From Anadara kagoshimensis (lineage: Eukaryota; Mollusca; Bivalvia; Arcoida; Arcidae), in NCBI GenBank assembly GCA_021292105.1, contig CM037857.1, forward strand, positions 30,804,365 through 30,868,364: 64,000 bases of DNA, in the 5' to 3' direction. This document shows, one piece after another, positions 7,113 to 57,700 of this stretch (position 1 is its first letter; each line of letters begins with the position of its first letter). A program made the position numbers and the translations under genes. The notes beneath the pieces were generated by a model, which was not told the origin of the DNA, made no database searches, and was given only the letters and a program-made list of their open reading frames with translations.

Positions 7113-10100
7113 GTAAATATATTCTTAACGCTATAGAAAATATTTGAAGAGTTATGTTCATTTGACTATTGATGATTTACACTCTGATCAAGATTCTAGC
7201 ACTTGTATGGGGGCAGTCAATTCTTCGACGGTAGGTGAGATAACTAAGACAAACGAACTAAGACTTTCTAAGGCCAGCAAGGCTGGGGTTTGAACATATA
7301 TTGTGAGAGGGGCTGTGATTCTCCAGCACAATTTTTAGACTACTCGGGTAGCGACATTCCTGCAAGAATATTCACCTAACATAAAGGTATTGCATACAGG
7401 AAAGCATTTATATTACACGATTGTTCGTGTGGCAAAAAGATCTTTTTATAAAACCAGTTAATTTGAATGTTCTGTAGTTTGGTTTTATGTATATAATATA
7501 GAATAAAGCAGTATGTTGCTTCAAAAAGTATTTTATTTCGAAGACACGATACAAAAGACAAACATTTATTTTGACAACTGATTGTACGACCCCCGACTTT
7601 GGATTGACGCTGAAAAATCCCGACTTTCAATGAATTCATTAAGAAGATTAACAGCATTTATTAAGTTTCAGCAATTTTGAAATTTTGAATTGTGATTTTT
7701 TGCAGGTACTGGTTGCAATGCGTGCTATATGGAAAAGATAGAGAACGTTGGGTTATGGGAGGGCGACTGTGACCATCCACAGCAGGTAAGGACATTATGT
7801 AGACCAAGCTATGTCAACAACCATAATGAGAAAAACATGTGTGACACATGTCGAAAACAAGTTTCTTTTTGAACCTGGTTAAAGTTGTTTTTGGGAAAAT
7901 GATATTCTTTTGAATTTATCCAAGTTTACCTGTAAATACCCCTAATGGTTTGAGATGTTTTTATGTTCACAATAACTACTGCTGACGTATATAAGTTTAT
8001 ATGTATAGGTAAACAACATTGACCTGTCCGTTTGATCTTTCATTAGGAATATTCATATAGAAGGATTCACCCAATAAATGGGCTGTAGTAGCATTCGCAT
8101 GGTACATGATTATTGTTCACATTATGTAAACAAAATAAACACCTGTGCTCCCTTTACATGGATGTACTTGGTCCGTGATAAATATTAAAATCAAAGGTCA
8201 AGCGGACAGGTCAAAGTTGTTTACCTATAGATCGTGTCTAATTATCCCGATATAAGATACACTGTTGTCAGTTTAAAGTTATTCACACTAGGATTCAGTG
8301 TATCAAATTTTAATATATTGAGAAACTCGAGAACGGTAGACCTGTCGAAAGTTTAACAGTAAGTTAAACAAATGAATTGGGCATAATTTACAGTTTATAT
8401 CGACCCCTCTTTAGCTGTATCTTGGCAGCTGCTGTATAATTCTTGGTAGCTCTTCTTTCACTGGCTATCCAAATCTCACCACATGACAGCCGATCTTTGA
8501 CTCATTTTAGTTAGCATCGTGTTAAACTATCAACAGGTTTGTACTGTAAATATATCTGGTGTGATGTCTAATGCGTATTACACAAAAATCAGTTTAATCT
8601 TCGATGAGGTAAAATCAACAAGTTGTCAGCTTTTTGTTATCTAGACTAGATCAAATTATCAGTTAAGCTGTTGTATAATTTTGTTATGATTATCTACATG
8701 TTGTGGTAATGGAGAGATTCTTGCTAACCAATCAACATACTAACCTTGCCTTCGTCTCATTAAGTTTGTTTGTCGGTTTTCTTCATGTACTCCAGATTCC
8801 TCAAACCTCCAAGAACTGATTGCCTCGATATAAGTGAAATAATTTTGACTGGGGCGTATACCACTCTTCTCATCTTCTTACTTTTTATATAGAGGGCCAC
8901 CATCAAGTCTTTCTAGAATCTGCTTATCACGATAACTTGTTAGTCCCCCTCAGACTGCTTGTTCACCACATCTCCTCAAGAATATGTGGCATGAACACTT
9001 GTTAGCCCTCTATGGACTGCATTTTTATATAGGTCCATCATAACGTCAATAGACAGTTTAAATGTATATTTATAGGTATTAATCAACACAGAATGGGGTG
9101 CTTTTGGAGACAACGGTTGTCTAGATTTTATTCGCACAGAATATGATAGAGAACTGGATACATTTTCAATCAATCCTGGAAAACAAATGTAAGATTTTAA
9201 ATCATTTTAACCTTAATAGTTTTTCTAGTTTTTCTCGAGTGAATGAGGTTTGGAAAAATGCTTCAAATGACGTCAAAGCACAGTACTATTTACTGCTAAC
9301 GCATGCCCTCTCCCTGTTGATTGTTTTTATGACCAACGGAAACTATGTTTTACTTTTAATTGTAAATAAGTCTCTAAATTTGCATAACATAATATTTTTT
9401 TTACAAAAACTGCATTATTTTTATGTCCAACGGAAGCTAGTTTTCACATTGTAATAATTGTTTTCAATATGTTTATTCGTTTGTCCATTGGATAATGATA
9501 ATTTTGCTTTTAATTTTGATTATATAATTGGTTGGATATTTCATCTTTTTATTGCGTGGTCATAGTGGTTCATTTTATGGCGTAATCGCGTTGCCTCATT
9601 TTAATGCTGCTCATGTTGTCCCATTTTATGACGTAATCCCATTGCCTTATTTTATGGGGTGCTGGCAGTGCCTCATTTTATGGCGTTCTGGTAGCGCCTC
9701 ATTTTATGGCGTGCTGGTAGCGCCTCATTTTATGGCGTAATCCCATTGCCTCATTTTATGGGGTGCTGGCAGTGCCTCATTTTATGGAATGCTGGTAGCG
9801 TCTCATTTAATGGCGGGATCAAAGCGCCTCGTTTACTACCTCCAACTTTCTATATATCATATTATGTTTTAACAGATTAGAGAAAATGATATCCGGGATG
9901 TATATGGGAGAAATTGTCCGTCTAACATTGGAGAGACTTACAATGGAAGGTTTACTGTTCTCTGGCATCGACAGGGAATGCGAGTTGTTTGTGAGACATA
10001 GATTCTACACAAAATATGTTTCTGAAATTGAAAGGTAACGACACTATTAATTTACTACCTGTAAATGCTTTTTTAAGGTGCATAAAGTAGAACCATAAAA

Positions 10101-11573
10101 TCAGCTTTAGCCACAAAAATGAGAAATGTTTGTTACCAGAAAAATCTGCAACTAAATTAATGAAGTCGTAAACTACAAGGTTCTAAGCTTAATGAAACAA
10201 AAACAACTAACCAAATTACCTCCATCATCGTAAATGGTATAAGTATTAAATCGTATATAATAGCACCTGGTCTCATTCCCAAGGTAAGTTCAACTGTTAA
10301 ACTTAATTTGTCTGTTTTCAAAGTTTTAATATGCCTTTAAGTTTGTGATTTGAACATGGGAGGTATGTTTGCGTTTGATATCAGTATGCATATATGCCTA
10401 ATATACTTGGATGACATACTAATTTTTACCTATATTTATTTCAGCGATCATGATGAATTCTTCAGAAACACAAAACAGGTGTTAGATGAAATTGGTGTGG
10501 AGAATTTCACTACCGAAGATTGTAAAATTGTTAAATATGTATGCACACTAATATCCGCCAGGGCAGCCTTCCTAGCATCAGCTTGTAAGTAATTTCCAAA
10601 ATAAAACTAAAATATATGTAATGAGAGAGAGAGAGAGATATATATATAGAGAGAGAGAGAGTTCTTTTATCAATCACAGATGTAAAATAAATATCTCTGG
10701 TGTAGCCTAGTGGCAAATCATGTGTATTTGTTTAAGAGGGAGAGTATCTTCTTGTCAGTTTTGTCTTCACATTCCCAGGTTGTTTAACTTTATAAGTTTT
10801 TATGGAATTTCTTAAACATTTTTGTTAAATTTTGCAGGTTTAGCCACGTTGATCAACAAACTAGACAAAGAAGAAACGACAATTGCTGTAGATGGGTCCT
10901 TGTACAGATTCCACCCAAGGTTTCACAATCTAATGTGTTTAAAGATGAAAGAATTAGTCAGACCAGGCCGCAAGGTAACTATTGAAGGGGAGATAAATCT
11001 AAATAATTGTTGATGGATCGTAGCTTGTAATATATTTCGTTGTAAATATAACACCAGCTTCAAATACTTTTAGTTAAGTTTGTAAATTCTAAAAAGTGGA
11101 CAATAAACAAGAACACCTTTAATCATAATTATATGAATTGCTTGGACAGTGAAAAACAAAAACATGCATGAAAGTATTCTTCAAATAATATTGCCAATTC
11201 GTTTAGCTGATAGATTGTGAACAGGTGATCTGGAACAATATTAATTCTTCTTTTTTCTATTAATTCAGAAAAATACTTTTCATGTTGTTTTCATTCTTAA
11301 TTTTTGCTTCACATGCGTTTGCTGTAGCTAGGTAGAACTTTAACTTAATGCTTACCTTCATTTTTCAAAGTTTTCACTTTGCTTTTAGGATTGTGATTTG
11401 AACATGGGCCGATTTGCTTGCGATTATGTGATTAACTTCTAACTAAAATGTTCTTTTTACAGTTTCGGCTTGAACTTTCACATGATGGCAGTGGTAAAGG
11501 TGCTGCATTAGTTGCTGCTGTAGCAATAAGACTACGAGAAGAAAAGAAAGAAATTGTAGTGGACAATGTATGA
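7013..11573 (+). CDS. HK: Hexokinase, C-terminal part (8 exons, 5' end not in window)
   Basis: Hexokinase phosphorylates glucose at C6 with ATP in the cytosol, the first step of glycolysis. Eight exons (7013-7112, 7706-7785, 9076-9188, 9876-10034, 10445-10584, 10838-10974, 11463-11573; the listed exon entries give details, and the count of seven here plus any missing 5' exons makes the full gene) join in phase with GT-AG borders. They code about 279 residues ending in a TGA. Visible family landmarks in order are [10 protein letters not shown] (holding the catalytic Asp), [19 protein letters not shown] and NPGKQ (glucose-binding loops), [21 protein letters not shown] and [12 protein letters not shown] (adenosine site). 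This equals the large subdomain of one hexokinase half. The small-subdomain exons should lie upstream but none was recognised in 1-7012, so they are probably left of the window. Correction to the count: seven exons are supported here, not eight. Family identity is very secure; the paralogue cannot be named. Confidence 0.95.
7706..7785 (+). CDS. HK: Hexokinase exon b
   Basis: 80 nt between tttttgcag and GTAAGG. It completes the Gly codon and codes the phosphate-loop-like [10 protein letters not shown] followed by an acidic stretch (EGDCDH). Ends in phase 0. Confidence 0.95.
8008..8225. mobile_element. MITE family 1, copy in hexokinase intron
   Basis: 218 bases, ends GGTAAACAAC and GTTGTTTACC, both flanked by TATA (8004-8007 and 8226-8229), a clean target duplication or TA/TATA preference. 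Confidence 0.85.
8335..8550. mobile_element. MITE family 2
   Basis: Inverted ends AGACCTGTCGAAAGTTTAAC and GTTAAACTATCAACAGGTTT, 215 bases apart, in a hexokinase intron. Confidence 0.65.
8755..8890 (+). repeat. SINE fragment, same block, hexokinase intron
   Basis: CGGTTTTCTTCATGTACTCC AGATTCCTC and TGCCTCGATATAAGTGAAAT. Confidence 0.5.
9076..9188 (+). CDS. HK: Hexokinase exon c (glucose-binding loop)
   Basis: 113 nt between tttatag and GTAAGA. It codes [20 protein letters not shown] and then SINPGKQ, the conserved Glu-containing glucose contacts. Ends AT (phase 2); the next exon supplies the third base to give Ile. Confidence 0.95.
9560..9838 (+). repeat. 26-base minisatellite in hexokinase intron
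   Basis: About ten copies of a 26-base unit (CCTCATTTTATGGCGTGCTG GTAGCG), GC-richer than its surroundings. It ends about 40 bases before exon 9876. Confidence 0.85.
9876..10034 (+). CDS. HK: Hexokinase exon d
   Basis: 159 nt between ttttaacag and GTAACG. It codes [14 protein letters not shown], a hexokinase signature helix, and a more variable segment ending VSEIES across the junction. Confidence 0.95.
10318..10375 (+). repeat. Tail fragment in hexokinase intron
   Basis: AAAGTTTTAATATGCC to GTGATTTGAACATGGG matches the last 55 bases of the tail. Confidence 0.4.
10445..10584 (+). CDS. HK: Hexokinase exon e
   Basis: 140 nt between tatttcag and GTAAGT. It codes the helical part with [19 protein letters not shown], matching the V-C-x-x-V-x-x-R-A-A pattern of the family. 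Ends phase 1. Confidence 0.93.
10838..10974 (+). CDS. HK: Hexokinase exon f
   Basis: 137 nt between ttttgcag and GTAACT. It codes [10 protein letters not shown] and [12 protein letters not shown], the conserved strand-turn near the nucleotide site. Ends with a complete Lys codon. Confidence 0.95.
11366..11430 (+). repeat. Tail fragment in hexokinase intron
   Basis: CAAAGTTTTCACTTTGCTTT to GATTTGAACATGGGCC, the same tail end, 35 bases before the last hexokinase exon. Confidence 0.5.
11463..11573 (+). CDS. HK: Hexokinase terminal coding exon
   Basis: Begins after ctttttacag and codes [20 protein letters not shown], the ATP-adenosine motif, then a short charged C-terminus ending in TGA at 11571-11573. 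Confidence 0.95.
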   Translation, partial: FRLELSHDGSGKGAALVAAVAIRLREEKKEIVVDNV

Positions 11574-13795: not shown

Positions 13796-13935
13796 ATAGC
13801 TAAACAGAAAATACTGACCTTTCTTGCCTGGTGTAACCTCGCTTGTTTAATTAAATTTACCAGTTTTCAGGATTTTTGCTGTGTTTTCTTGGATTGTGAT
13901 TTAAAAATGGGCCGGTATACATGTTGTATTTGTTT
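13796..13935 (+). repeat. Penelope-like tail block, diverged
   Basis: Ends in GGATTGTGATT and ATGGGCCGGTAT. It precedes the intact hammerhead by about 380 bases on the same strand. Confidence 0.5.
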
Positions 13936-14316
13936 TTGATTTTGAAAACATTACCTGCTTTTCAAGATACACTATTTCACTAACCAACTGGTAACCTTAA
14001 CGAAGCTTGGGCAACCAAGTAACGATAGATATCTTAAGAACTGTTTTTAATTTTTGGTTGTTTAAGTTTTAAAAAGGTTGTTACAAGATGTACATTATTT
14101 AATTTGATGCTATGTTTACTTTTACTTTTATTTGGCTTAAGTGTCACAATCAACTCTTTTTATTAAAAACATTAGAAACATAAAATATGTGTGATGCTGT
14201 AAATAAATATTTAAAAAATACACGATTTTAAAGAAACCTCCATATTGTCAATTTCAGCTTTGAATAGTAGCTTTTCAACATCTTCAAAATAATTTTGGTT
14301 TCATAATTTTGGTCCA

Positions 14317-14362
14317 AGCACTACTGATGAGGAATTGTATTCCGAAACGGCCGTCTAGTGCT
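14317..14362 (+). ncRNA. Hammerhead ribozyme, minimal type I, all core bases present
   Basis: Stem I AGCACTA (14317-14323) pairs perfectly with TAGTGCT (14356-14362). Core CTGATGA is at 14324-14330 and GAAA at 14344-14347. Stem II GGAAT/ATTCC (14331-14335 with 14339-14343) closes a TGT loop. Stem III is two pairs (A14347-T14354, C14348-G14353) with loop GGCC. The cleavage triplet is GTC, predicted cut after C14355. Such minimal type I forms with a very short stem III are known from Penelope-like elements and retrozymes and often act as dimers. It lies 2.7 kb beyond the hexokinase stop on the same strand, after a tail block. Confidence 0.88.
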
Positions 14363-14399
14363 GTAAAGTTAAAACTGGTATAATATGTAAATATCACAA

Positions 14400-19029: not shown

Positions 19030-20040
19030 AGTTGTAATCAAAAACAAACATACTAATCCATATCCGAATCCAGAAGCAAAGTAAAAACTTTGGAACTGAC
19101 AAGTTAGGTTATACACGTGAACTTTCACCAGGGAAGCGAGGCCGTGCGCTCCGGAAGGGTAAGCACCTCCTGTTTAGCTAGCTACACCCGCCACGTGTGT
19201 AATCAAAATTGTGTGAAAGGAACATGGAACTATGAGACGTCAAATATATCCAAGGCAATCCTGGACACAGAGACATCAAACTTGTCAACAATACTGTGAT
19301 GACGGCCATAAAACTTTTTAAGGGCCTTGATAAGCCTAGGCTTGCAATATCCCTGAGTCAACAATTTATTTGCAAGCAGCCTACTTCGTTGTACAAAGTC
19401 CCCGTAGTGGGAACAAGCTCTATCATAGCGTATTAATGGGGAAACAAATACACCATAAGCAGGAGAAGCAGGTATATTAGGCTGCATAAAAAGGAAAGTT
19501 GAAAATAAAAAAATTGAAGTAATCACGTTTGTCATAAGGTTTCAAATGTAGCCTTTCGTGTGCGTCATAAATCAGGTATAAGTCTAAATATGAAGCAGAA
19601 CTTGAGGGATCAGTCGTGTCTTTTATTTCAAGCTCACTACGATAGATGACATTTACATAGTCTGCAAATTTAGGATAATTAAGAGACAGAACGTCCTCTA
19701 TATATCTGTATGTTGAGTTGAATGATTTGGCGACAGTCTTCTCTCCAGATTTAACAAGGTTCTGCATAAATTCTGCTTCATAAAAACAAAGAAACAAATC
19801 AGCAAGCAATGGTGCACAGTTTGTACCCATTGGTATACCGATTGTTTGCTGACAAACTATATTACCAAACACAACAAATATGTTATCTTTCAAAAACTCC
19901 AACATTTTGTTGATGGTATCTTCAGTATATTTTTGTTTGGAATCCGTATGATGCTTGACAAAATAACCAGAATCCCTGTTCACCACCAGATATTTGTATC
20001 TTGGCTTACCAAGATATCTTGTATCTTGTAAACATTTGTT
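19030..20040 (-). pseudogene. Penelope-like element: reverse transcriptase and tail, broken
   Basis: Reading leftward from 20,040: KYLVVNRDSGYF, IGIPMGTNCAPLLADLFL, STYRYIEDVLSL, SYLDLYL and PYDKRDYFNF, then a frameshift near 19,510 and [33 protein letters not shown] and VSRIALDIF before a stop near 19,232. This is the RT of a Penelope-like element; the catalytic YxDD reads YIED, so it is dead. No endonuclease follows the RT; instead the sequence runs straight into the tail block (19,030-19,230) that is dispersed through the window. Relatives with an N-terminal GIY-YIG (Naiad type) also end like this, which fits but does not prove that placement. 5'-truncated. Confidence 0.8.
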
Positions 20041-29640: not shown

Positions 29641-29793
29641 TATGTTTATCTTTTTGTCCTTAAATTTCGATTTTTCTGTCAAAACTTTGTATTTTTTGTT
29701 TCACTGGTTGTGATTTTTGTTGCACATTTCTTCCATACATTCAATAACTTTGGAGAATTTACATATTATACCCGTTTTAATTTTTAATTTTAC

Positions 29794-29839
29794 AACACTA
29801 GACCGCAGTTGTGGAATACAATTCCTCATCAGTAGTGCT
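29794..29839 (-). ncRNA. Hammerhead ribozyme remnant, minus strand
   Basis: AGCACTA, CTGATGA and the full stem II are intact, but GAAA has become ACAA. It sits between two tail blocks on the same strand and downstream of the GIY-YIG remnant. Confidence 0.7.
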
Positions 29840-29984
29840 TGGACCAAAAATATGAAACCAAAATCGTTTTCAAGATGTTAAAAAGATACCCAAAGGATCA
29901 CTTTACAAATGTTAAGTAAATAGAAACTGGAAAACCCAACGTTAACACAAAAAGTAGGTTAAGACAATGAAGATATATAACAAA

Positions 29985-35120: not shown

Positions 35121-38100
35121 TTCGCCCTGCAACACAGTGTCCCTGGACGTCATTCGGTCCTCCTGGAATGATCCGGAACTGCAAGCTGTCGATGAACTAC
35201 TGCAAATAAAACATAATCACTGCAAAGGGAAAAGTAAACCAATACAGTCCAACCTGCCTTAAAGATCACCTCTATATATGGACACCTGCTTATAAAGGCC
35301 AGTAAAATTGTATCCCAATGCTTTTTTCATATAATCTAAAACTGTAGAAAAGGGGCCACCTGCCCAAAAGGCCACTTTTACTTGTTTACCTGGGTGACTT
35401 TTATGGACAGGGTTGACTGTACATCTGTACATGTTCTAATTTGAAAAAAAAAAACACACTTGGTCATGTTAAAATGTTAATACTTATAAAACATAACCAT
35501 TTAATTTTGTTTTTTAATCTCAAACATGATTGATAAAACAGTATCAGGCTTGTACGTCTTGTCTGAAATATTTGTTTGTTAAATACTACTACTACTACTA
35601 CTAATAATAATAATAATAATAATGGTAATAAGAATAATAAAACAATTTCCATTTGGCGACCAAAATTGAATTCAACTGAATATTTTGCTTCTTTTGAATA
35701 CTTTTGTATTGTAAGAAATAAACTATTTTCTAAATGTGCGTTAGTTAAAATTTAAACTCCCCAAGTATTCCCTTACTAACTTTAGTTAAATATGTTTTAG
35801 TCGTTTGGACATTTTTCAAGCCTTTGAAAAGTTCGATTTAACAATTTTGGTTCAAATGCTTCTGCAATTAAAGAAATTGCATTCTGAACGACTGTCTAGT
35901 GCTGTAAAATTACACTAGTATAATATTAAAATTAACAGTTGTAACGCAGTATTTGATTTTACATCATTGCTTGATTGTCAATTATCATCATTAGTCACAC
36001 AAACTGCCTTAATACGTTTTTCTATGAACTTTCTGGACCTTTGGTATATATATGTCTCTATAAAGGCAGAACTTCAAACCAAAGACATTTGATATTATTA
36101 TATCATTCTCAATTTCGATTACACACTTTGCAGGTATAACTATTTCTGAAAAGGAGATCCTTACTCTCCGGATCATACAACCTTACTCCTTGGTGGAAGT
36201 TTACGTGTAACTATATTTGTCAGTTTTAACGTTATTTTTGGATTGTGATTTGAACATGGATAGGTATGTTTATTCTATATTTTGTTGTTTTCATTTATTG
36301 AGCGATTAAGATGCACTGTATGAGCGCAAATATAAATAAAACATTATACTGTACCTGGACGAATCATTTTGGTAGTAATCCTCTGACACTGCCACTGATA
36401 AGTTGATATATGATTTAGTTACTTCTAACATTGTTTCCAGTTTTGTTTTAAGTTCAGTAAATGTTGGCCGACATATCGGATTTGGATGCCAACATGACAG
36501 CATGATTTGATAGCTGAAAAATTGATAAGCTCAATTGTAGCTTTAAAGAAATATTTCTTGTACACCATTACATGGATATTGTCATTTCAACAAGTTACAT
36601 GTTTCGCTACCAATATATCAAATTTCCATGCAGTTATATACGAAGAGATGAAATATTTTTTTATTTTTTGCGATGCATATTTAAAGTGACGTACGGATCA
36701 AACTGTTTCTGAATGCCTAGTTAGAAAATCCAAGGGTCTGATTCTAGACCTAATCGCTGGAATATAAATGAAAAAATGTAGCTAGACGTTTACTAGTTTT
36801 ACAGAATCAATTTCTTAATCTAGATATAACTGTAATTGAATATATTGCCATATTTAGATAATTTCAGAGATATATAGTAATTTTTTTACATGATGTATGA
36901 TAGACGGCGTGTTATGCACAACATGGATAGTTAACCATCAAAATAGTTCACCTTGATCTCCGTTTACGCTGGTAAATGAATACATGTATTGAATGTTTGA
37001 AACACTAAACAAATTTTTAGTCATTATAGATTTCGTTTTCGTATACCGACGATATATATGACACGAGTTGTCTTTCTTGCATTAATGTCTTCTTTTGATT
37101 TCTTAACGACCAGTAAATGTTGTAGCTATAGAATAATTTAAAATAATGTGGTAGAGCTTGTTCCCACTACGGGGACTTTGTACAACGAAGTAGGCTGCTT
37201 GCAAATAAATTGTTGACACAGGGATATTGCAAGCCTAGGCTTATCAAGGCCCTATTGTTGATAAGTTTGATGTCTCTGCGTCCAGGATTGCCCTGGACAT
37301 ATTTGACGTCTCATAGTTCCATGTTCCTTTCACACAGTTTTGATTACACACGTGGCGGGTGTAGCTAGCTAAACAGGAGGTGCTTACCCTTCCGGAGCAC
37401 CCGGAAAGTTTTTAACTTTGCTTCTGGATTGTGATTCGGACATGGATTAGTATGTTTATATTTTATTATTCCACGCATTATATGGTCTCTGCTTTTAATT
37501 TGGACAGATGCTAGATGGTATGGTTATTGATTTGTAGTTACTTACAGTTACAGTTTGAGAAGTACGAATTTGTATATGCTGTTTACATATATATATTTAA
37601 CCGTAAAAATAAATTGTGTCCCCTGCATAATTAATCCTAACCTAATCAGTTATTTACACTTAAAGTTTAAACAATACAAATTTGAAAATACAGTTTACAA
37701 AAACACATTTAACCATAAAACATAACTGTGTCCCCTTTCATAATTAACCCTAAATCAGTTATTTACACTTAAAGTTTGAACAATACAAATTTGTAAATAC
37801 AGTTTACAAAAATACATTTAACCATAAAACATAACTGTGTCCCTTTCATTATTAACCCTATGTCAGTTATTTACAGTTAAAATTTGAACAGAATGAATTT
37901 GTATATGCTTTTACTATATGCATGTAACCGTAAAAATAATTGTGCCCTCTTCATAATAATCCTAACATAGCAGTTATTTACAGTTAAAGTTTAAACAGAA
38001 TGAATTTTTATATGCTGTTTACATATATGCATGTAACCGTAAAAATAATTGTGTCCCCTTCATAATTAATCCTAACATGTCAGTGTTTGAACAATACAAA

Positions 38101-41100
38101 TTTGTAAAAACAGTTTACAAAAATATATTTAACCATAAAACATAACTGTGTCCCCTTTCATACTTAACCCTGACTATGTCAGTTATTCACACTTAAAGTT
38201 TGAACAACAAACGCGGTTTCATAAAACATTTAACCTTGAATATGGTACATAAAAAGCTGATCAACATACATTTCCGGGCTACAGTTTTCTGGTTTTTCCA
38301 TTCTGTAACCGTCTTTAAGTAATCTAAATATGTCTTTATTTGGTATTCCAGGATATGGACTCCCAGCCAGAGTCACAATTTCCCAAAGTACTATTCCAAA
38401 TGACCACCTGAAAACAAATATTGAACGTTAATAAATAACGGTAGTAAGTTTATTCTATTACATACATAACATTTGAACGAATTTAAATGGGAAAAAAGTT
38501 AATGAATATTAAAAATTCCACATTTTACCATACTCATAACTCCTCATTATATTCCGAAACGGCCGTCTAGTGTTGTAAAATGAAAACTAGTATTATATGT
38601 ATTTAAACCGCTTGACCAGTATATCTGCTGTGGCTGGTGCCTCGAGTATATCTCAAACTCAGTAGGCAATAATTGTGAATTATTGTCAGAAATATACAAC
38701 TATTCTAAGTTTGCTGCTAGTTAAAATTTGATATTCCTCAAAGACTAAGGTATACTCCATCGTGCATCCCTTTGGGTATCTTTTCAACATCTTGATAATA
38801 AGTTTGGTTTCATAATTTTGATCCAAGCACTACTGATGAGGAATTGTATTTAGAAATGGTCGTCTAGTGCTGTAAAATTAAAACTGGTATAATATCTAAT
38901 TTGTTATGAGCGCAAATACAACAATAAATGGAGACATTTCTTTTCAAGTGTGACGTACTTTGCCATATATTTATGATCTTTGAAGGACCAGAACCGCAAC
39001 AAATAATTAAACTAAACTCCATTAAAGTGTTAGCAGTCAGTATGAAAGTGAATGTCATAGAAAACCACCCGTTCGTGTTTGGTCATGATTACTTGATGAT
39101 GTTGACCTTTCCAATATATCGAAAACCAAATATATTAACAACTTACACATCACTTTTAATAGTGAACGTTTGATCAAATACAGCCTCTATTGCCATCCAT
39201 TTGTATGGAAGTTTTCTAGCTGAGGTTGGCTGGTACATATTAGTTTCATATACATCTCTCGTCAGTCCAAAATCGGATATCTTCAACCTTCTATCATCAC
39301 ACATTAATATATTCCGTGCTGCCAGATCTCTATGAATGAATTTTTTCTGAGACAGGTATTCCTAAAAATAATTAAAAGTCAAAACAAAAGATTTTAGATT
39401 TTTCAGAAAAATTGAGAGGTTCACTGGTAAATATCAAAGGGGTAGTGATTTAAATATATGAAAAATAACATTAAGTGGGAAAATTCTCAAATCATTTACG
39501 AATTAAAACAGTAATTTTCTTAAGTAAGATATAATGAAAATGCAATTTGATAATAAGTTACAGCTACCGTCACTGAATTTTGAACCCCCGCCCTAGAGAA
39601 CAAAATATCCAGGCAAAGATAGAGCAATGGCCTTCTGTAAATCTTCGAGGCTGTTTTTAAGGTATTTCTTCACTTTGTCGGATGAATGCTATTGCATATT
39701 GAAGCGAAATACCTCTAATCAATATTATACCAGTGTTAATTTGACAGCACTAGACCCTCTTTCTGAATACAATTTCTTATCAGAAAATGAAATTAACATT
39801 TTCAAAAGTTTTATTTTCGTTTTATATTCTCGCAAATTTTACGTGAAAATAAAACGTTAGCAAAAGACTTTAGATTTACAGAATCGTATCGCGCTATCCA
39901 TGGCATGTTGCAAAAATACGCCAATTTAGCACATCAGATCAAATACATGTACAATAAAACTTCACACGGAGGTCGACAAAAATAGAGAAAAAGCAAGTCA
40001 CCTTTACCCAGAATGACACTGGACAGGGAGGCCAAATAGTTCGTCAAATGCAGGGTTCTAATCATCTCAAATATTTTATTATTATTGATTCTGAAATCGC
40101 AACATAGTATATATTTACTGGCATTGTGTAAAATAAAATCTATAGTTTCTTTTGTAAAGATTTATAGCTTAGGTCCAACCGTCGTCATGACATTGTTGAT
40201 AAGTATGATGTCTCTGTATCGTAAATTACCATGGATATACTGTATTTGACTTCCCATGTTCCATGCTTATTTCATTCTCAATTTTGATTACACACGTGGC
40301 GGGTTTAACTGGCTGTACAGGAGGCGCTAATCCTTCAAGAGTAACCGGGCTTAGATTAGATTTTAGATTATGTTTGGGACGTAGACTAGTATGCTTGTTT
40401 TCATTAAAACTGAAGAACGCTACAATAATGTTGTTTTGCTTATTAGAAAAATCGTAATATAATAGTTAAGTATATGATCATAACTTACCATCCCAATAGC
40501 TATTTGTCTGGCGTATGACAAAAGTGTTCCCTGGCATATATAGGCACCTCTATCATCCAACGTATCTGAAAAATAAATTTATATGTCTGTCTTTACATAA
40601 CTCGATCGATTACCGCTGTTTATATTTTTCTACCTTTATTACATGTTTTTGTAAACAGAAAATTTATGAAACAATTGTTTACAAGTGTTCAATCTCAATA
40701 AACTGTTTTAATAGGTTTCTAGTCCAAATGAATGAAGGTTTATTTTTTCGTTTTATATAATATAATTCTGATACCGGACTGAACAACTGCAAATCATAAT
40801 TTACTTTTAGTGAGAACATCACGTGTTCAACTTAATAGGTCAATTTCAAAAATTTAATTTGCTTTGAGATTGCGATTTGGACATGGAATGGTATTTTTCT
40901 TTTTTGATTCAACACCATTTGCTATGTTTTCCAAGTTTCGTAAAAACCTGACCGCACTGTTTCGAACCAGGAACTAAACTCTTTTCAACATCTACATTCT
41001 TTGACATCAACTTGAAATGCATGGTCCAACAAAGGCCAATGTTAAACCATAAACATATAATCTCCTGACATCAAAACTCACTTTGTACATGTGTTGGTAT

Positions 41101-44100
41101 TTTCGCTTCATGTGAAACACTTGCAGGGTTACCTATAGCCAAATTTTAATGAGACGTGGCAGGTGTAAAAGCTCATAAAATGCAAATGTACCAAGTTTTT
41201 AAGTATAATGTCATAATCAACTCAAAATATTTTGAAAGTAATTCTCGACTTTAATGTAATATTTATGAATAAATTTGATATATTTATTGTTATATAGATA
41301 ATTATACAAAGAATTGAATGTAATAGTAGCGTTAGGTGAAACAAACGTATACTATTAATGTCAGTATATAATTTTTGAGATAGAAATATTATTAGCTTAG
41401 ATGTGTATGGGAAAAAGAGTTGCATTCACAAATAGTACGTATAAGTAATTCAAACTAAAAAGTACAACAAATTGCGAAAATTTGATGCGTTTAACTTAAT
41501 GTGTTAATTTTCAAAGTTTTACTCTAATTTTGATTGTATTTGAACTCGGACGGGAATGTTTTTTGTCAGTAAAGCTAGCACTTTGCAATTAATGCTTTTG
41601 CTTTTTATCGAAAATACAATTTGGTTTGTTTGTCTAACTGCAAACTAAAGTAACGTTTCATGTGCATACTGACATCATACATTTCAGTTTGAGAACGTGA
41701 CAACACATGTTTTTTCAAATAATATATGTATTGTTAATAAGTTTGGTGTCTCAGTGTCCAGGATTGCCCTGGATATATTTGACATCCCATGGTTTCTTGT
41801 TCATTTCACTCAATTTTGTGGTGGGTGTAGCTAGCTAAACAGGAGGTGCTTTCCGGCCTCACTTTCCAGGTGGGAGTTCACGTGTTTAACCTTATTTGTC
41901 AGTTTCAAATTATTTACATTGCTTCTAGATCGTGATTCAGTCATGGGTTAGTATGTTGGTTTTTTGATTAGAATTAATTTGAAACTGAAATTAAGTATTA
42001 AGCAACAGTCAATGTAAAAATGTAGCATAATTATAAGTTAATGATACGATAGTTAAACAAGACAAGAAAGGACAAAAACATATACATTGGACGGGAATTA
42101 ATTAGGTTATGAAATATACTATTGTAGGTATTCTAACTCATTAAAAGTATTTCCTAAGCTACATTGGGTCAAATATATTTTTGGACAATTCTTCGAAAAA
42201 AATGGTTTCACAATTTTCGCCCAAGCACTACTAATGAGGAATTGTATTCCGAGACGGCCATCTAGTGTTGCAAAATTAACACAGATAATATAATCATTAT
42301 GTTATTATGTTAATATGCTTTTGTGGTAAACGAGTAGGCCTTTAATGTAAAGACAGTCACCCCGGTAACAGCCAACGTAATCGAGAAATGTATCATTAAA
42401 TAAGTTAAGCACCTAAACAAGACAAGGAAAGTAACAATATTGTGTATTCTATATATTACAAAATTAAGCGAGTAAGGGCATTTTCGATGTGGTTGTAACT
42501 TTCCTTGTAAATTGACAACCATCAAACTTATTATAAAACTAACATTTGAAAAATACAAAAAAAAAACTTACAAGTCGAGATTTACCAATTTAATTTTTAA
42601 TTAACATTATAAAAAATTATAGGTGTAACGATATGATATAACATTGTCAGAGCACACAGCCTCACTTCCGTGGCTGGAGGTGGTGTATTGTATTAAACTT
42701 GTCAGTTTTCAAAGTTTTAAGTTTGCATTTGAGATTGTGATTCATGCGCGAGTCGGCCTGTGTTGGTTGATAGACAGGATAAGAGTAACCGTCGCTGAGG
42801 TTCGAATATTAGCTTTATGGAACCCAGTAACTTAACGAACCGCGCCTTATGGAACAAATTAACCTAACATGGGTTATTTTTCAGATATTTCACTTTAGGG
42901 ATGTTATTTTAAAATTGATTTGTATATTTCTTTTTTATGTAGTCTGACGATGACAATGATCTACGACATATAAAAAGTACAAAAAAGGTAATGCTGATTA
43001 AATCCACCATTGATTAATGCAAATAGAATCATATGGAAATGTATATTCGGGTTTGAATTCGACAATTTTACAAGATTTATTTAATAAGAATTTACGTCTC
43101 AGTCAAGAATATTTCACTTATATCAAGACGTCGCCAGTTATAGGTGACGTGGCATATATATTTTTACCGTTGTAGTATAGCAATATATAGCAATATATTG
43201 AAGCATCGGTTTAAATGTCTCTTCCAAAGGACTTCGTTTGTAAATAAAGAGTATTTATCGAAATAGTCACTTCCTATTTTTAGGTCTTGATCAGACCCAC
43301 CCGGGGTTCGAACCCACGACTTCTCACATAAGGAACGATGGGGCGATCTTAAAAACCACTAGCATAAATTGTTTATTATTGCGTAGAATTGAATAAGCTT
43401 TGAAATATTAATTGATTAATGAATGAATTAATTACTCTGATTAATTATATATTAATTAATATACTGAAGTTAATACGACAATGTTCATATTATAAATAAC
43501 CAAGAATCTATTGTGCAATGGTCATACATTACTGCTTTTGAAATAATGAGCCAATGAATGACATAATGAAGATATAATTTGGCATGAGGTTTAATTAGCA
43601 ATTGGCATGCAAACACGGAGTAAATCGTCAGTATTTAGTAGATGTAGTTTTATTTTGACCAATTACCAATATTTTCTTGTGAGGCAGCGTTCACACTTTC
43701 GTCGGAGGAATATAAATGCCGATATTTGTTGGAATCTGAATTTGCAGCACATGGACTGCCATCTGAGAAATACAGAAACAACTCAAACTATTTGCGATTT
43801 TGTAAACCCATGCCTTCCTAGAACACAAAGCTACTTTACAGAATAAACTTAAAGTATATACAACTAGTTGAGTGATAGACAATCCTGTAAAACCTTTTGT
43901 AATTATTTAATCAAGATCTTGTAAAAAACATAAATAATCATAGGTGATATATTCCAGTATTTTTGGTTAATATTGAGTTTAAGGATTTTTCTAAACATAT
44001 TGTCTTTAAACATAGAAGGTTATCGATGCATGTAAATTCAAGACATACAGTTTGACGATAAAATGGAAAAACAAATGGAATTCTGTCTTGCAAATCTATT

Positions 44101-47100
44101 TAAACAGAAGGTGCTTTCCCTCCCAGAGCACCTGACCTGACTTTACCATTAGAAGTTCATGTGTTGAATCATAAATCAAAATTAATATTTTGTTCATTTT
44201 GCCATTTTAAGAGTATATGTCGAAGCTTGCCATACAGTTTGCATACGATTCCAAGGCTCTGGTAAATTAAGATAAAAAGTTTCAAAATTCTAGTCTAAAA
44301 AACGGAATAACAAAAGGGAAAAATTTCACTATATATTCAGAAAATGAATCTAATTAAAAGACTTACCAATTGTGTCATCGCTTGAACATGGCTTACTATT
44401 CCTACTTATTCCACTGTCAGAGCTGCGTTGTTTATGATGTTCTCCATATATGTGCTTTAAATAAATAAGCTCAGTTTAAAACAAGTTTATAGTGAAATTG
44501 TGTAAGTAACTAATAACCCTTTAACCCTTTAATCTAATGTCCAAAATAGGAAAAGTATATCACCTAATTATTTAAATTGCAATGAAAGAAATAAACGTGG
44601 TTCTGAAAATGTTTTATGAACGAGAAAAATTAATAATAATGTAGATTAGACCGGAATAATTTAGTTGTCATGGTTTTTGTATACGAATATTTACTTGTAT
44701 AGAGACAAATATGTCGTATATTTATCATAACAGTCATGAATGTTTTAAATATTGTCGTCATGATTTGTTGAAATTATAAATATAATATGGAGTACTCGGT
44801 CTCACTTCCCGGGTGGAAGTTCCCGTGTATAACCTTACTTGTCAGTTCAAAGTTTTTACTTTGCTTCTGGATTGTGATTCGGATACGGATTAGTATGTTT
44901 GTTTTGATATGTGTCTACGCTAACGTTTTGATGCCAAAAGTAAATAAAATTATGAAAAAATGTTAACGCAAGTAAGTACGTCCCAAATCGGATGCTAGAA
45001 TTTTCTCGAGTTTAATGATATATTAAGAAAATATAACTATAACAATATTTCGAAGCTTTTCTGAACTAATCCGTATCATAAAATGCACATAAGAAAATAC
45101 GTTAACATAGGTCAGCAGGAACGTGCATGATCAACAGTGAAATTTCAAATAACAGTAAACAGTAATTAAAAATTTTTAGTATAAACTTTAGATCTGACTT
45201 AGAAAAGAAAATTCATATTATATGAAACAACTTTTTCAAACAGAAGGTGTTTACTCTTCCGTAGCACCTGGTCTCACATCCCTTGTGGAAGTTCACGTGT
45301 TTAACCACATTTACCAGGTTCAATGTTTTTTAATTTGCTTTGAGATTGTGGTTTGGTCATAGATTTGTATGTTCGTTTTGGATAACTGTAAAGAGTGTTT
45401 TTCCGTTTCATACTGCTTATCGTAAAATAGTTGAGGTGAAAAATGAACGAAACTAATTTATGTTGTTCGACGACAAACATTTAAATTTGATAAATCAACT
45501 CAAAATAAACATTACTACCCCGTACATTATGATTTTTATTTTAAATCAATTTGTAACTAAAATCATGAAGATGTTTTACCTACACCGACATGATTTTCAC
45601 CTCCTATATCATACTGTGATCTATTTCCTCATGTTTTAATCTATATGTTTTGAAGCATAATTTTGTTTGTGTTTTACCGACTACTAAAATATTACACTCA
45701 TTATATTTATTATAATATAACCTACCTAAACAGAAGGTGCTTACCCTTCCGGAGCACCCGGTCTTACTTCTCTAGTGGCAGTCCACGTGTCTAACCGGAC
45801 ATGTAAGTTTAAAAGTTTTTACTTTGTTTCTGGATTGTGATTCGGACATGGATCAATCAATGTGTTTGATTTTTATTATAATGCTGTTTTCAACTTTTTT
45901 TCAATTAGGTGTTACTGGTAACAACTTTACTAAGAGATACCTTATGTCGGAATTGTAAAAGATAATTTCGCAGATCACCAAGCAAACAATAATCCATTAT
46001 CAAACATATTTTTGGTCCTCTGGTACAACAACCAACAATACTGACGATATTGGGATGATGTCCTAGGTGTTTCATTGCCTCGATTTCGAGCATTAAATTT
46101 CTTCTTTCTGTTGAATCTGGATTATCTAAAACAAAAATGAAAATTTGTAATGCTACAGTATACAGTTTTGCCTCGATCTAGAATGCGATAGTCCTATCCG
46201 TCATCAACCTGAATTATCCAAAAAAAAATTAAGGCCAGTTAACCGAGATTTATCAGCAGTTACTGTGTTGCATGTGCGAAAGAAGGCATACGAAAAGATG
46301 TGGTAACTTATTTAAATACAGTTTAATAATACATTAGGCAACAGCTTCATTAAAGCAATAATAATTGAGTGAATATCATAACATTGAAAAAATACATTTG
46401 TTGATCAATGCGATTGTTACGTGTGTATAAAATTTTACTTAGGTCTTTTTTAAAGTATTTCCTTAGTTTAATTTTATAAAGGTAGTCCTTTTGGGTTTTT
46501 TCAACATCTTCAAAAAAGTTGGTTTCGCAATTTTGGTTTAAGCACTACTGATGAGGAATTGTATTCCGAAACGACCATCTAGTGCTGTAAAATTAAAACT
46601 TCTAAAAAAGTATTTTCATCATGGGTATAGGTAACAACTCAAACTCTGATACTGAGCACTGGTTGTAAAAGGTGAGATAGAAGAGTCTTTTAATAACAAT
46701 ATATACATACTTCAAATTCATTACATATAATGACCTTCCAATGCAAACAAATCATAGTCATTGATGCTGTCTTTTAATTGCTTGATTTTTTTGTGTTCCT
46801 GGTTGCATTTACGACTATAAACAGTTTAGCTGCCAGAAGTTGTTTCACTAACAAAAACGTACTAACACCAGTGTTACACTGTGTCTACTTTAAAATTAGA
46901 AAAGATTTCTCACCAATTACTTTAATCAAGGTACTTTATTCTATTTGATTTGAACATGGACCGGTATATTTGTTTTTTATTATAAAACTAAGTGTAAATT
47001 CTAGTTTGATGGTGTGGGTATTTAGGTACAGTTTAACCTGCCTTAAGGGTCAACTCTAAATAAGGGTCACCTGCTTATAACGGTCAGTAGAATTTTATCC

Positions 47101-51700: not shown

Positions 51701-54700
51701 ATATGCTTAAACTTTTATCAAATCACACATTTTCTGTGCATAAAGGCAAAACCTTTTCACAATGTAACCAAAAATAACTTTAATGCAAGGTGTAAATGAG
51801 GCATTTTCGTACTCAAGACACAAGGTTAAAAAGCTGATCGCGATTTATCCACAATTTATGATCAGTTTTATACTACTAACTACCCTAAATGCAAAGGGGT
51901 TGTGCTTTTATATGACATAATGATATCAACTTGAAACTGAATAATATGAACTTACCACAGATACTATAGTTGTAGTTTGTGGCATTTAAACAGTCTACTG
52001 TATAAAATCTAGTTTTAGTTTCGTCGTTTACTCCTTTCTCTGACTTCTCTTTCTTAAAACTCGGATCATCATAACTGTGCATTGTGATAGTATAATTACA
52101 ACCGAATCTCAGTTTGTTGATCCAATACTCATTTACTGGATGTGTCTTTAAAAGAGAAGAACACTTAAAATTCAACATGGAATTTTGGATACGAGAGACA
52201 CATTGAATTTTAAGCTAACATAATAGCTAATTAAAATACGAACCAAATCGTTTACAGATACACAGATACATAAAGACCTTTTTATAAAAAAAGTCAGAGA
52301 GTCCAAGGACTCAAATCAGAGCCTTAATGACTAAAATCAATTAAAATTTAAAAATTTAAATAGACACTGTACAGGGGACTGCTTTTTAATTGTTCCAAAT
52401 CCCATAGTGAAAGAGGGACTGTAAAACTCTGTGGACCTACCAATTTAAGATGCAGTTACGTCTTTGTATTTTCATTTCAATTGAAACAAATCATTTGTGT
52501 CAGGTTCTTTTAGTGATGGTTAAGAACAATGTAATTGCTCGACAATATGTGTCTTCAGGACATGTTGGTTTTCAAACAAGTAGAAAATTTATTGATTGGA
52601 TGAATGTGGTTTTCAGTTCAAGACAAGTATATATCACTAATATCGAGACGTCACCAGCTAAAGGTGGAATGCCGCAGGAATTTTTAACTTTGCTGTGCGC
52701 TGAGCGCAATTTGCGAAAGGGGTTCTTCAACGTGCCATTGGACATAGGTTTTTAACGTTTCGTCCCCCTGGCTGATTTCTAAATACCAAGTGATTGGAAA
52801 GAGAAGCGTATCTACCTATTTTCAAGTCTTGTTCAACAAACGATTTTCAACATACACAGCCAGCTGTCTACCACTGAGCTACGGTAGTGGTCTTAATCAA
52901 AAACAAACATACTAATCCATGTCCGAATCACAATCCAGAAGCAGAGTAAACACTTTGGAACTGACAAGCTAGGTTAGACATGTGAACTTCCACTAAGGAG
53001 GCCGAATGCCCCGGAAGGGTAAGCATTTCCTGTTTAACTAGCTGCACCCGCCACGTATGTAATTAAAATTGTGTGAAAGGAACATGGAACTACGGAACTT
53101 CAAATATATCCAGGGCAATCCTGGACACAGAGACACAACAATACTATGATGACGGCCATAAAACTTTTAAGGAGCCTTGATAAGCCTAGGCTTCCAATAT
53201 TCCTGAGTCAACAATTTATTTGCAAGCAGCCTGCTTCGTTGTACAAAGTCCCTTAGTGGAAACAAGCTCTACCATAGCGTTTTAATTAGGAAACAAATAC
53301 ACCATAAGCAGGAGAAGCAGGTATATTGCTACATAGAAAAGGAAAGATGACAAAGGAAAAATTGAAGTAATCACGTTTGTTCTAAAGTTTCAAATATAGC
53401 CTTTCGCGGGCGTAATAAACAAATACAAAAATGTTTTAATTGCAGATGTTTTTCATTTATTTCGCTCATTTCGCTCATTCGATACTAGAAAGAAGTTGAA
53501 GTTGAATTCAATAGTCAAATCTGTATTGCATGGATACAAGGTCTGTTAATTATAATTTTTGATTTAAACAGCTGCTAACTTTCTAGCCCAAATTCAAATA
53601 AAAGGAGTTCAACAACAATTTTATCAATATGATTTCTATTTAAGGAATTAACTGATGAAACAAAATATTCTAAAGGGATATCTACATGTATTGAGACTGG
53701 GTAAAACATTCCCAATTAAGAGAGATACAGACTTAGACAGTAGACACCAATTCTAAAGGGAGATTTCGTATGTGAAAAATCTGCGTTATATATGAGATTT
53801 CAAAATGAATGGTATTACTGGAAACGTGGTTATTTTTGCGAGTGGAAATATTTGCGAAATCGGACCTAGGTTTTGTTGAAATTTTCACGAGTGGGTAACT
53901 TTTGCGATCTTTTTTAAATCGCAAAGCAGAGAAAATTTTCACTTTGCGAAAATAACCACGTTAACAGTATTCATTTGCACGTTTACAGTATTTTTATGCT
54001 AAAATACATGTTTGTCCTTTTATTTTTACCATTTAAACGTCTTAGAAATATTTGGATAGCCAAAATTTTAGTCCAAGCACGACTGATAAGGAATATATTC
54101 CGAAAAGGTCGTCTAGTTCCGAAACATTTAAACAGGCTTGATACCAATCACGTACATTCCGGATATTTATAAATAACAAACATGACGATCCATGTCAAAT
54201 ATATTATAAAAATACAGCTAACATGTTTTCTAATAAAGTTCAGTTCAAGTGAGTATGGTATTCTTTTTGAATTGATATTTTAGCTATGTAGGTATTTCAA
54301 CGAACTCCTCTATAGAACAATGTAATACATATCGCCCGTGCAGTCAGCTTACTTTTTGTAATCATAATTTGAAAATGAAAAAAAAACTTATAAAAAGTAA
54401 AGTTGTATTATACCTGATTGCGTTAATAAAATATATCTAACTGATTAATATATATGTCTATATTTAGGTAGGCGTGAAACAATACAATACTAAATATTTT
54501 TTCGTCAACAAAGCTAAAATTTTACTCCCCTGTGGTTTGATGCGACAAAAAGTTTTACTTAATTGTAAAATCTTGTACTATTTAAATAAAGTGTGGTTTT
54601 AATTTTATTTTAGAAAGCTGATAATTTCTCGAATACAAACAAATAAGAAAAGGTGAAAACTAAATCATAAAAAATATTCAATTTTTTAATATTACAAAAG

Positions 54701-57700
54701 AAATCTTATGTTTTCAATCGACAGGGACTTTGTATCAGGAATACTATAATTATATAGTGTAGATATTATTATTTGACAAAACACATGCCCGGATTTTCTA
54801 ATTATAATTCGAACTTACAATAGGTTGTTTTTGTTATAATATGGCGCATTTGTGTTTTATTGTTTTTTAGTTTTTAAGTATTTTACAACATGTTATGTTT
54901 TGGATATATAAAAAAATTCTTAATGCAAATATTATATTTATCATTGGAAATTGCAAAATATTGTTTTCATAAAAGTATGGCGCCATTCTCTGATCTTAGG
55001 TTTGGTTTCTTAATTATTTTAAACAATTGGAGAAATGTAAAATCCTTTTTCAAAGGAAAAACATTTATGCAGCTGATTCACTGTTTCAATCAATATCTAA
55101 AAAACAATGCACTACAAACTTAAATCATATAAGAACTTTTGATAAAAAATATTGAGACAATTGTAGTTTTCAAATCGCTAAAATATCAAATACTAGTACA
55201 TGATCTCGGTCCTTTTATATTTGTCATTTCAACATCTTAAAAATATTTGGATTTAAAAAATGTTAGTGCTGGCGCTACTGACAAGGAATCTTTTTCCAAA
55301 ACGGCGTTCTAGTCCTGAACAATTAAGTTACTGTATATTGCTTTATTTTCACGGTGTTAAATTTTCGCGGTTTGACGATAACTAATGTACTCTCGGCGAC
55401 ATATTTTCGCGGTTTTATCTGAAGGAAAACGACCTTATCAAGAGTAATGGACTGGTTATACTCATGTATTTTCCACAACGAAGTTTAAAAATTAAAAAGT
55501 AATTGTAGTAATAATAAGGTTTTTGGTCACAAAATGATTATGGTGAAAATAAATCTGATGCTTGTCCATAGTCAGTCGTGTTATGACCAATGACTCAAAT
55601 ATTTGTTATGTCTTCTGTCTTGATTATTTGCTCTTTCATTACATTTTATTTTTCGCGCTGTTTATATAAGCTGTTGCAAAGTATATTTCTTTTTTAAACA
55701 TGTAACAAATACATTCAAATTCTGTACTTTTGTCCATCACGGGGATAAAGGACGCAATTTGTCTCAGTGGTGTGGTTTGAATATCCGTTTTAAAAGCATT
55801 ATTGTCATTCTTACCCGTATTTCCTCAGCAGCATAATTCGATTTTTCAGGACCACATGTTGACATCCAATATAATCTGTAAAAACACGGGGGTCCTGTCG
55901 GAAGAAAAAAATATGGAAATTATTTCGAGAGCAAATACGGTTATAGATTAAGGTCGTATAAACAGGAGGCAATACGAAGTCAGTTTTTTATAAACTGTTT
56001 CCTTTGTAGTCTGTAATATCAATAACATACCAAAACATATACGAATGAAAAGGTTTTAAATGAAAGACGAACATACTAATACATGTCAAAATTACAATCC
56101 CAAAGGAAAGTATAAAAATTGAAACTGACAAATTTGGTTAACCTGCACTTCCACCTGGAAAGTGAGGCCGGTGCTCTAAATTGGTTAGCATCTACAGTTC
56201 AGCTAGTTTCACCCGCAAGGTGTGCAATTAAAATGGTAATGAAAGGAACATGTAATTATGGGATATATTTTATCTTCAGGGTGATTTTGGAAACACAGAC
56301 ATCATTCATATTAACAATATTATGATTACGGCAATAAAACACTCTGAGGTCCTTGTTAAAATCTTTAATAAGCAAGATCAGAAAATGTTCTTATCATCTT
56401 TGAATCATAATTTTTTTTTGTAAAATGTAAACTTTGATGCACATAAATGAATAATCTCCACGAAATACATGCCACGAAAACTTACCTACATTTGGTTCCC
56501 ATACCAATTTTGCACTTATAGATTTGCGGAAATACAACTGGTGAACGATGCGCATATTCTTTGGTGGTTTTGATTGAAAACTTGCTGTAATTTAAAGATA
56601 TAAAAATCGAAATTTCAATTTTAAATTCGACTATATTATAATACAATGCAAATCTTTAAGAAAGAAAGGTTTGAAAAAGGAAACCAAAATCATGTAAATA
56701 AATACTTCGATATCATCAGATTGATTGGATTGATCGATTTGTAATAATAAAAATAAAGGTAATCAAAAGTAGCATGAAGCTCTAAAGCTTTATGAAAAGC
56801 AAACATGAAATTCCATGTCAAAATTGCAATTCTAAAGCAAAGGTAAAAACTTTGAAACTGGCAAATTAAGTTCCACTAGGGATGTGAGGTCGGGTGTCTC
56901 CTGATGAGCTAGCTAAACTCGCCAGGTATGTAATCAAAGTTGAGCAATAAATTAATTTGGAAGTATAGGACCTCATGTCGAGGACGTTTTTGGAAACAGA
57001 GACATAATACTTATGAACGATATTGTGACGACCGCCCATAAAATAATATCGTTGTGTCAACTATCTATTTGTAAGCAGCTCGATTTGTGTGTATAAAGTT
57101 TCCGTCGTTGTTACAAACTCTATTATAGCGTATATCTAATACGCATATTCTCGCAAGTACTTTTTCTTTTACTTACCTGGTAGGGTTTTTATCCATTTTG
57201 ATTTTACGGGTGGTATGATGATACCCCTACTATACACTGCCGTAATTCTAAATCGGTATTCAGTGTCAAAATTTAAATTATTTATCGGCACAAATGAAAG
57301 GTTTGTCTGAAAAAAGCAGATGATATAAAAACACAATACTAATCGAAATAAAAGAAAAATACCAAATCCATTAGCAACATGTCAAATATAAGTTATATAA
57401 ACTTACATGCTTGTGTATATAATTAAAACTCGATGAAATAAGTTGAAATAAGACATATTGAAAAGTATTCATGTATCAATTTTAGGCAATACATTGAAAA
57501 GATTACGAGCCATTGTAAGTATTTGAAACAAAACTGGTTATAATATTGTTTGCAGGCTTCAAACATTCCACACCAAAAAGGTTTATAAATAAGACCACAA
57601 AAATACTCCGTAGTGTACTAAACTATGAACCAACATGCCTTGCATGTATAACACTTAATATGTTCGTGTTCACAGTAAATGGTTGTAAAAATGTCAATAG

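Follow-up and report, generated by a model that had tools for sequence, protein, structure and literature searches.

A sequence with every part of a hammerhead ribozyme lies at positions 14317-14362 of the window, the 64,000-nucleotide stretch of Anadara kagoshimensis DNA analyzed here, downstream of apparent hexokinase exons. The question raised by this locus is whether the hammerhead is genuine and, if so, whether it serves the neighboring gene or belongs to an element that moves. Our preferred reading, to which we assign a probability of about 0.85, is that it forms the 3' part of a dispersed copy of a non-LTR retrozyme, a 339-bp, AT-rich, non-coding element for which we propose a cycle of copying via RNA circles. 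Self-cutting, non-coding mobile repeats of this kind have been described before, in mussels, corals and salamanders.

The hammerhead and its detection

A previous interpretation of the locus, made from the sequence alone and hereinafter the sequence-only reading, claimed a complete hammerhead core with perfect stems of 7 and 5 bp and a third stem of 2 bp, and direct inspection of the letters confirms this. Stem I pairs AGCACTA (14317-14323) with TAGTGCT (14356-14362) over 7 bp without a mismatch; the core consists of CTGATGA at 14324-14330, GAA at 14344-14346 and C at 14355; stem II, GGAAT-TGT-ATTCC (14331-14343), has 5 perfect pairs and a TGT loop; and stem III, AC-GGCC-GT, has 2 perfect pairs. 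The RNA is expected, from this arrangement, to be cut after C14355.

A covariance-model search, suggested as a check in the sequence-only reading, gave a divided answer. In an Rfam scan of the whole window, no family reached its gathering score, but at a permissive threshold positions 14318-14361 aligned to Hammerhead_1 (RF00163). The likeness extends over the full model (positions 1-45 of 45), and the difference lies in the score, which at 28.1 bits falls short of the 34 needed for gathering, with an E-value of 4.3e-5 for 281 bases that we rescaled to about 0.01 for the window. The gathering score of this model was reached in 0 of 13 related loci scanned, and a whole-genome Rfam search with RF00163 produced 0 matches, the control genomes being equally silent (0 of 14).

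A descriptor script that combines CTGANGA and GAA with a stem I of at least 5 bp, a stem II of at least 4 bp and a stem III of at least 2 bp matched the window at this site alone, and yielded 0 matches in 12 Mb of first-order Markov sequence searched on both strands. The core by itself occurs twice in the window, compared with a mean of 0.48 in shuffled sequences, a count of 2 being reached in 9 of 100 shuffles, and the single-strand minimum free energy fold at the site is unremarkable (z -0.76). Across the genome (1.115 Gb in 36 contigs), the 32-nt core is present in 3,061 exact copies, whereas the reversed pattern is found 0 times. Taken with the absence of the full descriptor from the Markov sequence, these counts rule out a chance hammerhead, as the sequence-only reading had anticipated.

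The same counts bear on the gene upstream. Exon pieces of hexokinase are detectable on the same strand at 7696-7869 (25.0 bits) and 10816-11010 (32.8 bits; cut-off 24), an arrangement that would suit a functional hammerhead trimming the hexokinase mRNA in its 3' region. However, the site belongs to a mobile repeat dispersed in thousands of copies, and those retrieved besides this one are spread over many contigs; the idea of a special feature downstream of hexokinase is thus abandoned, and we consider a role in trimming the mRNA scarcely credible.

The 339-bp unit and its copies

The structure of the repeat is most apparent at one locus (L031), where units of 339, 339, 339 and 338 bp follow each other head to tail, are nearly identical and are each closed by a hammerhead. 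The unit has a GC content of 33.9% (about 34%), is non-coding, lacks a reverse transcriptase and, being a direct repeat of 339 bp, displays no visible LTR arrangement. Metazoan non-LTR retrozymes are characterized, among other traits, by the absence of LTRs, primer binding sites and polypurine tracts. Copies in the genome are either 5'-truncated fragments or tandem arrays of this unit. The number of exact genome-wide matches drops from 3,492 for the tail to 3,061 for the core and 2,163 for the stretch upstream, which is consistent with 5' truncation. Animal retrozymes are described as type I hammerheads within tandem repeats of 150-450 bp, present as dimers to multimers (PMC7229834). By the features compared, namely a type I hammerhead, tandem repeats of 339 bp within the published size range, low GC content and many dispersed copies, the element found here is an animal non-LTR retrozyme.

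The unit matches nine places in the window (Table 1). The fragment that contains the hammerhead starts at 14267 in alignments with other genome copies and at 14272 in the alignment with the L031 unit. Because it has a single hammerhead, it could not release a unit alone, and this truncated copy is probably an inert fossil. In the copy that slightly exceeds one unit, the second hammerhead (38826-38871) keeps the core and has an incomplete stem II; the short copy on the opposite strand (39719..39783) is absent from the set aligned over the hammerhead.

Table 1. Hammerhead and retrozyme features in the window
Feature	Positions	Strand	Basis
Type I hammerhead ribozyme	14317..14362	+	sequence; sub-threshold RF00163 alignment; sole full descriptor match in window
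Stem III with GGCC loop, ACGGCCGT	14347..14354	+	self-complementary; 8-bp stem III possible between two hammerheads; two-copy cofold
Retrozyme fragment, 5'-truncated, about 0.35 unit	14267..14390	+	alignments to genome copies and L031 unit
Fixed 3' tail past cleavage site, element terminus	14356..14390	+	3' end common to genome copies
Decayed copy, core broken	29756..29900	-	unit and hammerhead alignment
Old decayed copy, core broken	35763..35935	+	unit and hammerhead alignment
Copy of slightly more than 1 unit, starting within hammerhead (unit position 318)	38546..38902	+	unit alignment
Short decayed copy, starting within hammerhead (unit position 308)	39719..39783	-	unit alignment
Decayed copy, core broken	42126..42291	+	unit and hammerhead alignment
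Decayed copy with intact core, lacking a stem III pair (GACCATC instead of GGCCGTC)	46452..46600	+	alignment
Old decayed copy, core broken	53997..54136	+	unit and hammerhead alignment
Old decayed copy, core broken	55227..55326	+	unit and hammerhead alignment

According to the sequence-only reading, decayed relatives in the window share the fold. They do belong to the same repeat, but the core is kept in three of the eight aligned window copies, 14317-14362 included. As independent support for the fold, the decayed relatives fail: among 19 aligned copies, 0 of 14 hammerhead pairs changed on both sides, the fraction of pair cells that remain paired is 83.0% compared with 83.9% in shuffles, and the core is broken in 11 of the 19. 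Core and stems of decayed copies diverge by 14.2% as opposed to 19.2% for the flanks (p 0.014), a comparison set aside given that the matches had been seeded on the hammerhead. Exact matches to the core do not outnumber those to the tail, and the pairs do not covary, so that these data show no selection on the ribozyme.

The suggestion that the tiny stem III implies action as a dimer is supported computationally. The motif ACGGCCGU reads identically on both strands, and a pair of hammerheads is predicted to cofold at -34.5 kcal/mol into a double structure in which stem III, now of 8 bp, is shared and the stem I strands are swapped; for one copy, the best fold has -12.3 kcal/mol and the single hammerhead fold -7.8. 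In this model, the hammerheads likely work as pairs via the ACGGCCGU palindrome.

Other repeats are present in the window as well. A 26-bp tandem repeat with the unit TTTTATGGCGTGCTCGCAGTGCCTCA occupies 9547-9834 and does not match the retrozyme unit, and a LINE remnant that preserves parts of an endonuclease and of a reverse transcriptase extends over 57824-62795 on the plus strand and is followed by short tandem repeats at 62769-62889.

Copy ends, arrays and a proposed copying cycle

The ends of the copies were examined by alignment to the unit in 63 non-overlapping loci out of 69 (6 overlap others), from which 4 near-duplicates were removed. The resulting 59 copies represent a small part of the thousands present and were picked either for an exact core, in which case most lie on contig C1, or by best similarity, so that young and intact copies are favored and those truncated inside the core are hidden. 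Counted from the cleavage site, the 3' end falls at unit positions 36-40 in 45 of the 59 copies and at 27-47 in 57, the two others being L006 and L051. A 3' end that lies past the cleavage site, with the sequence unbroken through that site, implies a template that was continuous there, either uncut or cut and circularized.

The 5' ends are scattered. Of the 59 copies, 38 are shorter than a unit, and these are dispersed, single and 5'-truncated; their starts are compatible with a uniform distribution along the unit (KS p 0.37). Starts were counted in 57 copies, L041 (cut by the end of the locus) and L051 (with a different 3' end) being excluded, and a single one of these lies near the cleavage site, at +3 (L018), where a cut linear monomer predicts a copy ending at +1. 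Among the 19 counted copies of at least one unit, 7 start between unit positions 301 and 319, in the hammerhead's 5' half, a weak clustering with p 0.0005 for a place picked by eye and p 0.014 after allowing for that choice; another 3 start at positions 36-38, adjoining the insertion end, and this clustering is weak as well (p 0.09).

At the 3' junction, aligned in 54 of the 59 copies, the base after ...TATAATATGTAA is A or T in a fraction of 0.98 and the second base is T in 0.85 (A+T is 0.68 in the window), and the flank beyond these two bases is near background composition; this bias may reflect a target preference or be part of the end of the element. Target site duplications of the SINE or LINE type are mostly absent from the 55 copies tested (55 of the 63 loci), 7 of which reach a duplication score of 7 compared with 4.1% of null pairings. 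The one clear duplication among these copies is of 32 bp (L037); another is of 9 bp (L089) and a third is within a microsatellite (L028), and the rest hardly exceed the null. The 32-bp duplication places the true end of the element at +36. A weak hairpin at the 3' end, which recurs when units are folded as circles (4 of 5) or locally (3 of 5), carries no weight in the argument.

At least one unit is held by 21 of the 59 copies, and five copies hold 2.2 to 5.0 units. Within each of the five arrays with at least two near-complete units, these units share variants relative to the family majority: 4 in L010, 7 in L024, 7 in L031, 3 in L084 and 1 in L086. In other loci, 14 of the 22 shared variants have a frequency of at most 0.01 and the rest of 0.02-0.29, those of L084 falling at 0.02-0.07, and 46 of the 53 sites that vary inside an array are singletons. 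Near-complete units diverge by 0.3-1.5% within four arrays and by 4.1-5.3% within L086, the median between loci being 4.6%. In two-copy loci with partial overlaps, the divergence is 1.1-1.6% for three (L006, L023, L051) and 4.3-6.9%, as between unrelated loci, for the other four of the seven (L015, L019, L022, L039). Low divergence together with shared rare variants is expected if one template was copied again and again; both would equally arise if the DNA was amplified once inserted.

The arrays could be ordinary satellite DNA grown by unequal exchange, with the hammerhead as a passenger, and the mere existence of tandem arrays, as well as the similarity of units within four of them, agrees with such an origin. 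However, the 38 single, dispersed, 5'-truncated copies with a common 3' end are the product expected of a retroelement, and arrays and single copies share that end, which makes the satellite origin very improbable.

The ends and arrays can be accommodated in a retrozyme cycle of five steps, of which the first three are known for other animal retrozymes, as described in the survey of these elements (PMC7229834). Tandem copies would be transcribed into multimers; the multimers would be cut into 339-nt units by hammerheads, likely paired via ACGGCCGU; and the units would be circularized by a host ligase. At a cut target, the reverse transcriptase of an autonomous element would then begin at an invariant internal position, 36 nt beyond the resealed junction, and would pass the junction and circle the template until falling off, yielding copies that share a 3' end, differ in their 5' ends and sometimes exceed one unit. 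Reverse transcription probably starts inside a junction-sealed RNA and runs around it, and that RNA would probably be a circle. Unlike the hammerhead sequence, the unit, its copy number, the ends, the arrays and the base preference at the 3' junction, which are observed, the first three steps in this species, the circle as template and the helper reverse transcriptase are what we infer.

The template might instead be a linear multimer that is transcribed from arrays already in the genome and stays uncut, with the hammerhead dispensable for insertion. In the Anolis Penelope-like element, hammerhead mutants are reported to leave insertion in vitro unchanged (PMC11167929), and the read-through of the junction in 57 of the 59 copies needs just an uncut RNA. 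Against this stand the rare variants common to all near-complete units of an array, which are derived most simply from one recopied template, and, more weakly, the three starts at 36-38 noted above, as whole circuits would generate. On balance, we regard a linear template as unlikely, although it deserves serious consideration.

Candidate helpers and known systems

A reverse transcriptase fragment is present in the window itself (19477-20061, minus strand) and belongs to a family, which we take to be Penelope-like, characterized by 5' truncation; 150 matches to it were scored across the genome, and identical scores are frequent among them. Pfam detected nothing in the window piece, a longer copy of the family matched RVT_1 at 23.9 bits (below the cut-off of 29.6), and comparison of the family with solved structures gave no useful match. 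The retrozyme is not a part of this family, which in 15 loci has its own fixed 3' end and a tail unlike that of the retrozyme, and which in 20 loci contains no such hammerhead inside the element. A related hammerhead fragment does occur near 5 of these 20 loci and was considered as a link to a helper; it was rejected given that it lies beyond the end of the reverse transcriptase element, within a larger repeat. Among the loci read, we found no element that encodes a reverse transcriptase and carries the retrozyme tail ...AAAACTGGTATAATATGTAA.

The larger repeat, in which a decayed reverse transcriptase copy and a retrozyme fragment occur together (L075, L076, L077, L065, L070), includes arrays with a period near 21 bp, and over 4.4 kb the identity between its copies on C4 and C17 is 98.7%. 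By eye, an apparent decayed 3' end of the window reverse transcriptase family is located at about 13870-13945, shortly before the hammerhead copy in the window.

The genome also contains 50 matches to the GIY-YIG endonuclease. Three of these 50 loci were read downstream, and in these any resemblance to the retrozyme unit is confined to chance matches of 15 nt. One of the three (L095) has, about 990 bp downstream of the GIY-YIG domain, a hammerhead-like motif (1239-1271) with a 7-bp stem II and a self-complementary ACATGT (ACAUGU) that replaces stem III; presumably, this is the minimal Penelope kind of hammerhead. No hammerhead model matched in an Rfam scan of this motif, which has 19 exact copies in the genome, 12 of them in six close inverted pairs. 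These observations suggest that two kinds of hammerhead element may coexist in this genome, as reported in other animals (PMC7229834).

Could, then, the hammerhead of the 339-bp unit be the pLTR hammerhead of an autonomous Penelope-like element? The sequence-only reading had likened it to those of both retrozymes and Penelope-like elements, and the first likeness holds, with a type I fold and a weak stem III within a repeat; the second fails, the 339-bp unit being devoid of a reverse transcriptase. Penelope-like elements do have type I hammerheads of a minimal form, and their reverse transcription begins internally (PMC11167929); the L095 motif also speaks for this reading, the exact motif being located at the same distance of about 990 bp from two GIY-YIG hits (C15:59.52 Mb). 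That motif, however, differs in sequence from the retrozyme hammerhead and is far rarer (19 compared with 3,061 exact copies), a directly repeated 339-bp unit leaves no space for a reverse transcriptase, and the related hammerhead near the 5 of 20 reverse transcriptase loci sits past the 3' end of that element. An identity of the unit with a Penelope-like element is accordingly quite improbable.

With internal initiation published for a Penelope-like element, a Penelope-type reverse transcriptase is, by analogy, a plausible helper of the retrozyme. The purified Anolis protein is reported to begin reverse transcription within the RNA, downstream of the hammerhead cut, and to prefer A/T-rich DNA, and two start sites account for the tail of 30-40 nt in genomic copies of the element (PMC11167929). 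Tentatively, and at somewhat less than even odds, we propose that the insertion of animal retrozymes is the work of a reverse transcriptase of the Penelope type, which would begin at one fixed place on a ribozyme-made circle, 36 nt beyond the resealed junction, and roll round it. If this is true, the single 3' end, the scattered 5' ends and the arrays with shared rare variants are a genomic record of circle copying. In the paper describing animal retrozymes, the enzyme that moves them and the circle as template are presented as proposals, with LINEs or Penelope-like elements put forward, without demonstration, as the copiers (PMC7229834). The end at +36 points to an RNA segment that a helper must recognize and offers a read-out for reconstituted insertion, and thousands of copies with a sharp 3' end, as well as arrays with shared variants, make the questions of the helper and of the circle testable.

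By description alone, the nearest known system is the retrozyme of the mussel Mytilus galloprovincialis (Cervera and de la Pena 2020, PMC7229834), for which about 5,000 hammerheads and repeats of 350-390 bp are reported; the unit described here is of 339 bp, and the fixed 3' end and the 5' truncation are measured here. In the open-licence literature, we found neither a retrozyme family in a clam nor the ends of such copies. Like the 339-bp element, metazoan non-LTR retrozymes are characterized by type I hammerheads with a short stem III, low GC content and thousands of dispersed copies (PMC7229834). Most of the conserved loop contacts are reportedly missing from the hammerheads of Mytilus (PMC7229834), and none are evident by eye at 14317-14362, where stem I is unbroken and loop II has 3 nt. 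Animal retrozyme RNAs are reported as unit-length circles and appear as circular RNAs on blots (PMC7229834). Such circles are described as highly self-paired, whereas the 339-bp circle, at 65% paired, folds no better than shuffles (z +0.37 against 100).

Plant LTR retrozymes resemble the 339-bp element in being non-autonomous, in bearing hammerheads and in the proposed movement through circular RNA (PMC4918200); they differ in having type III hammerheads and LTRs (PMC7229834), as opposed to a type I hammerhead in a 339-bp direct repeat. Penelope-like elements encode a reverse transcriptase, usually along with a GIY-YIG endonuclease, whereas the 339-bp unit has no reverse transcriptase and a different hammerhead. 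With Poseidon of Anolis (PMC11167929), the likeness consists in an internal start past the hammerhead cut, A/T-rich targets and partial tandem copies. In that element, the hammerhead cuts at ORF position +26, reverse transcription starts most often at +111-118, and the tail lies between two start sites (PMC11167929), in contrast to the single end 36 nt past the cut here. Judged by analogy, the fixed internal end and the base bias at the junction suggest that the retrozyme may resemble a Penelope-like element in the way it works, as distinct from belonging to that class.
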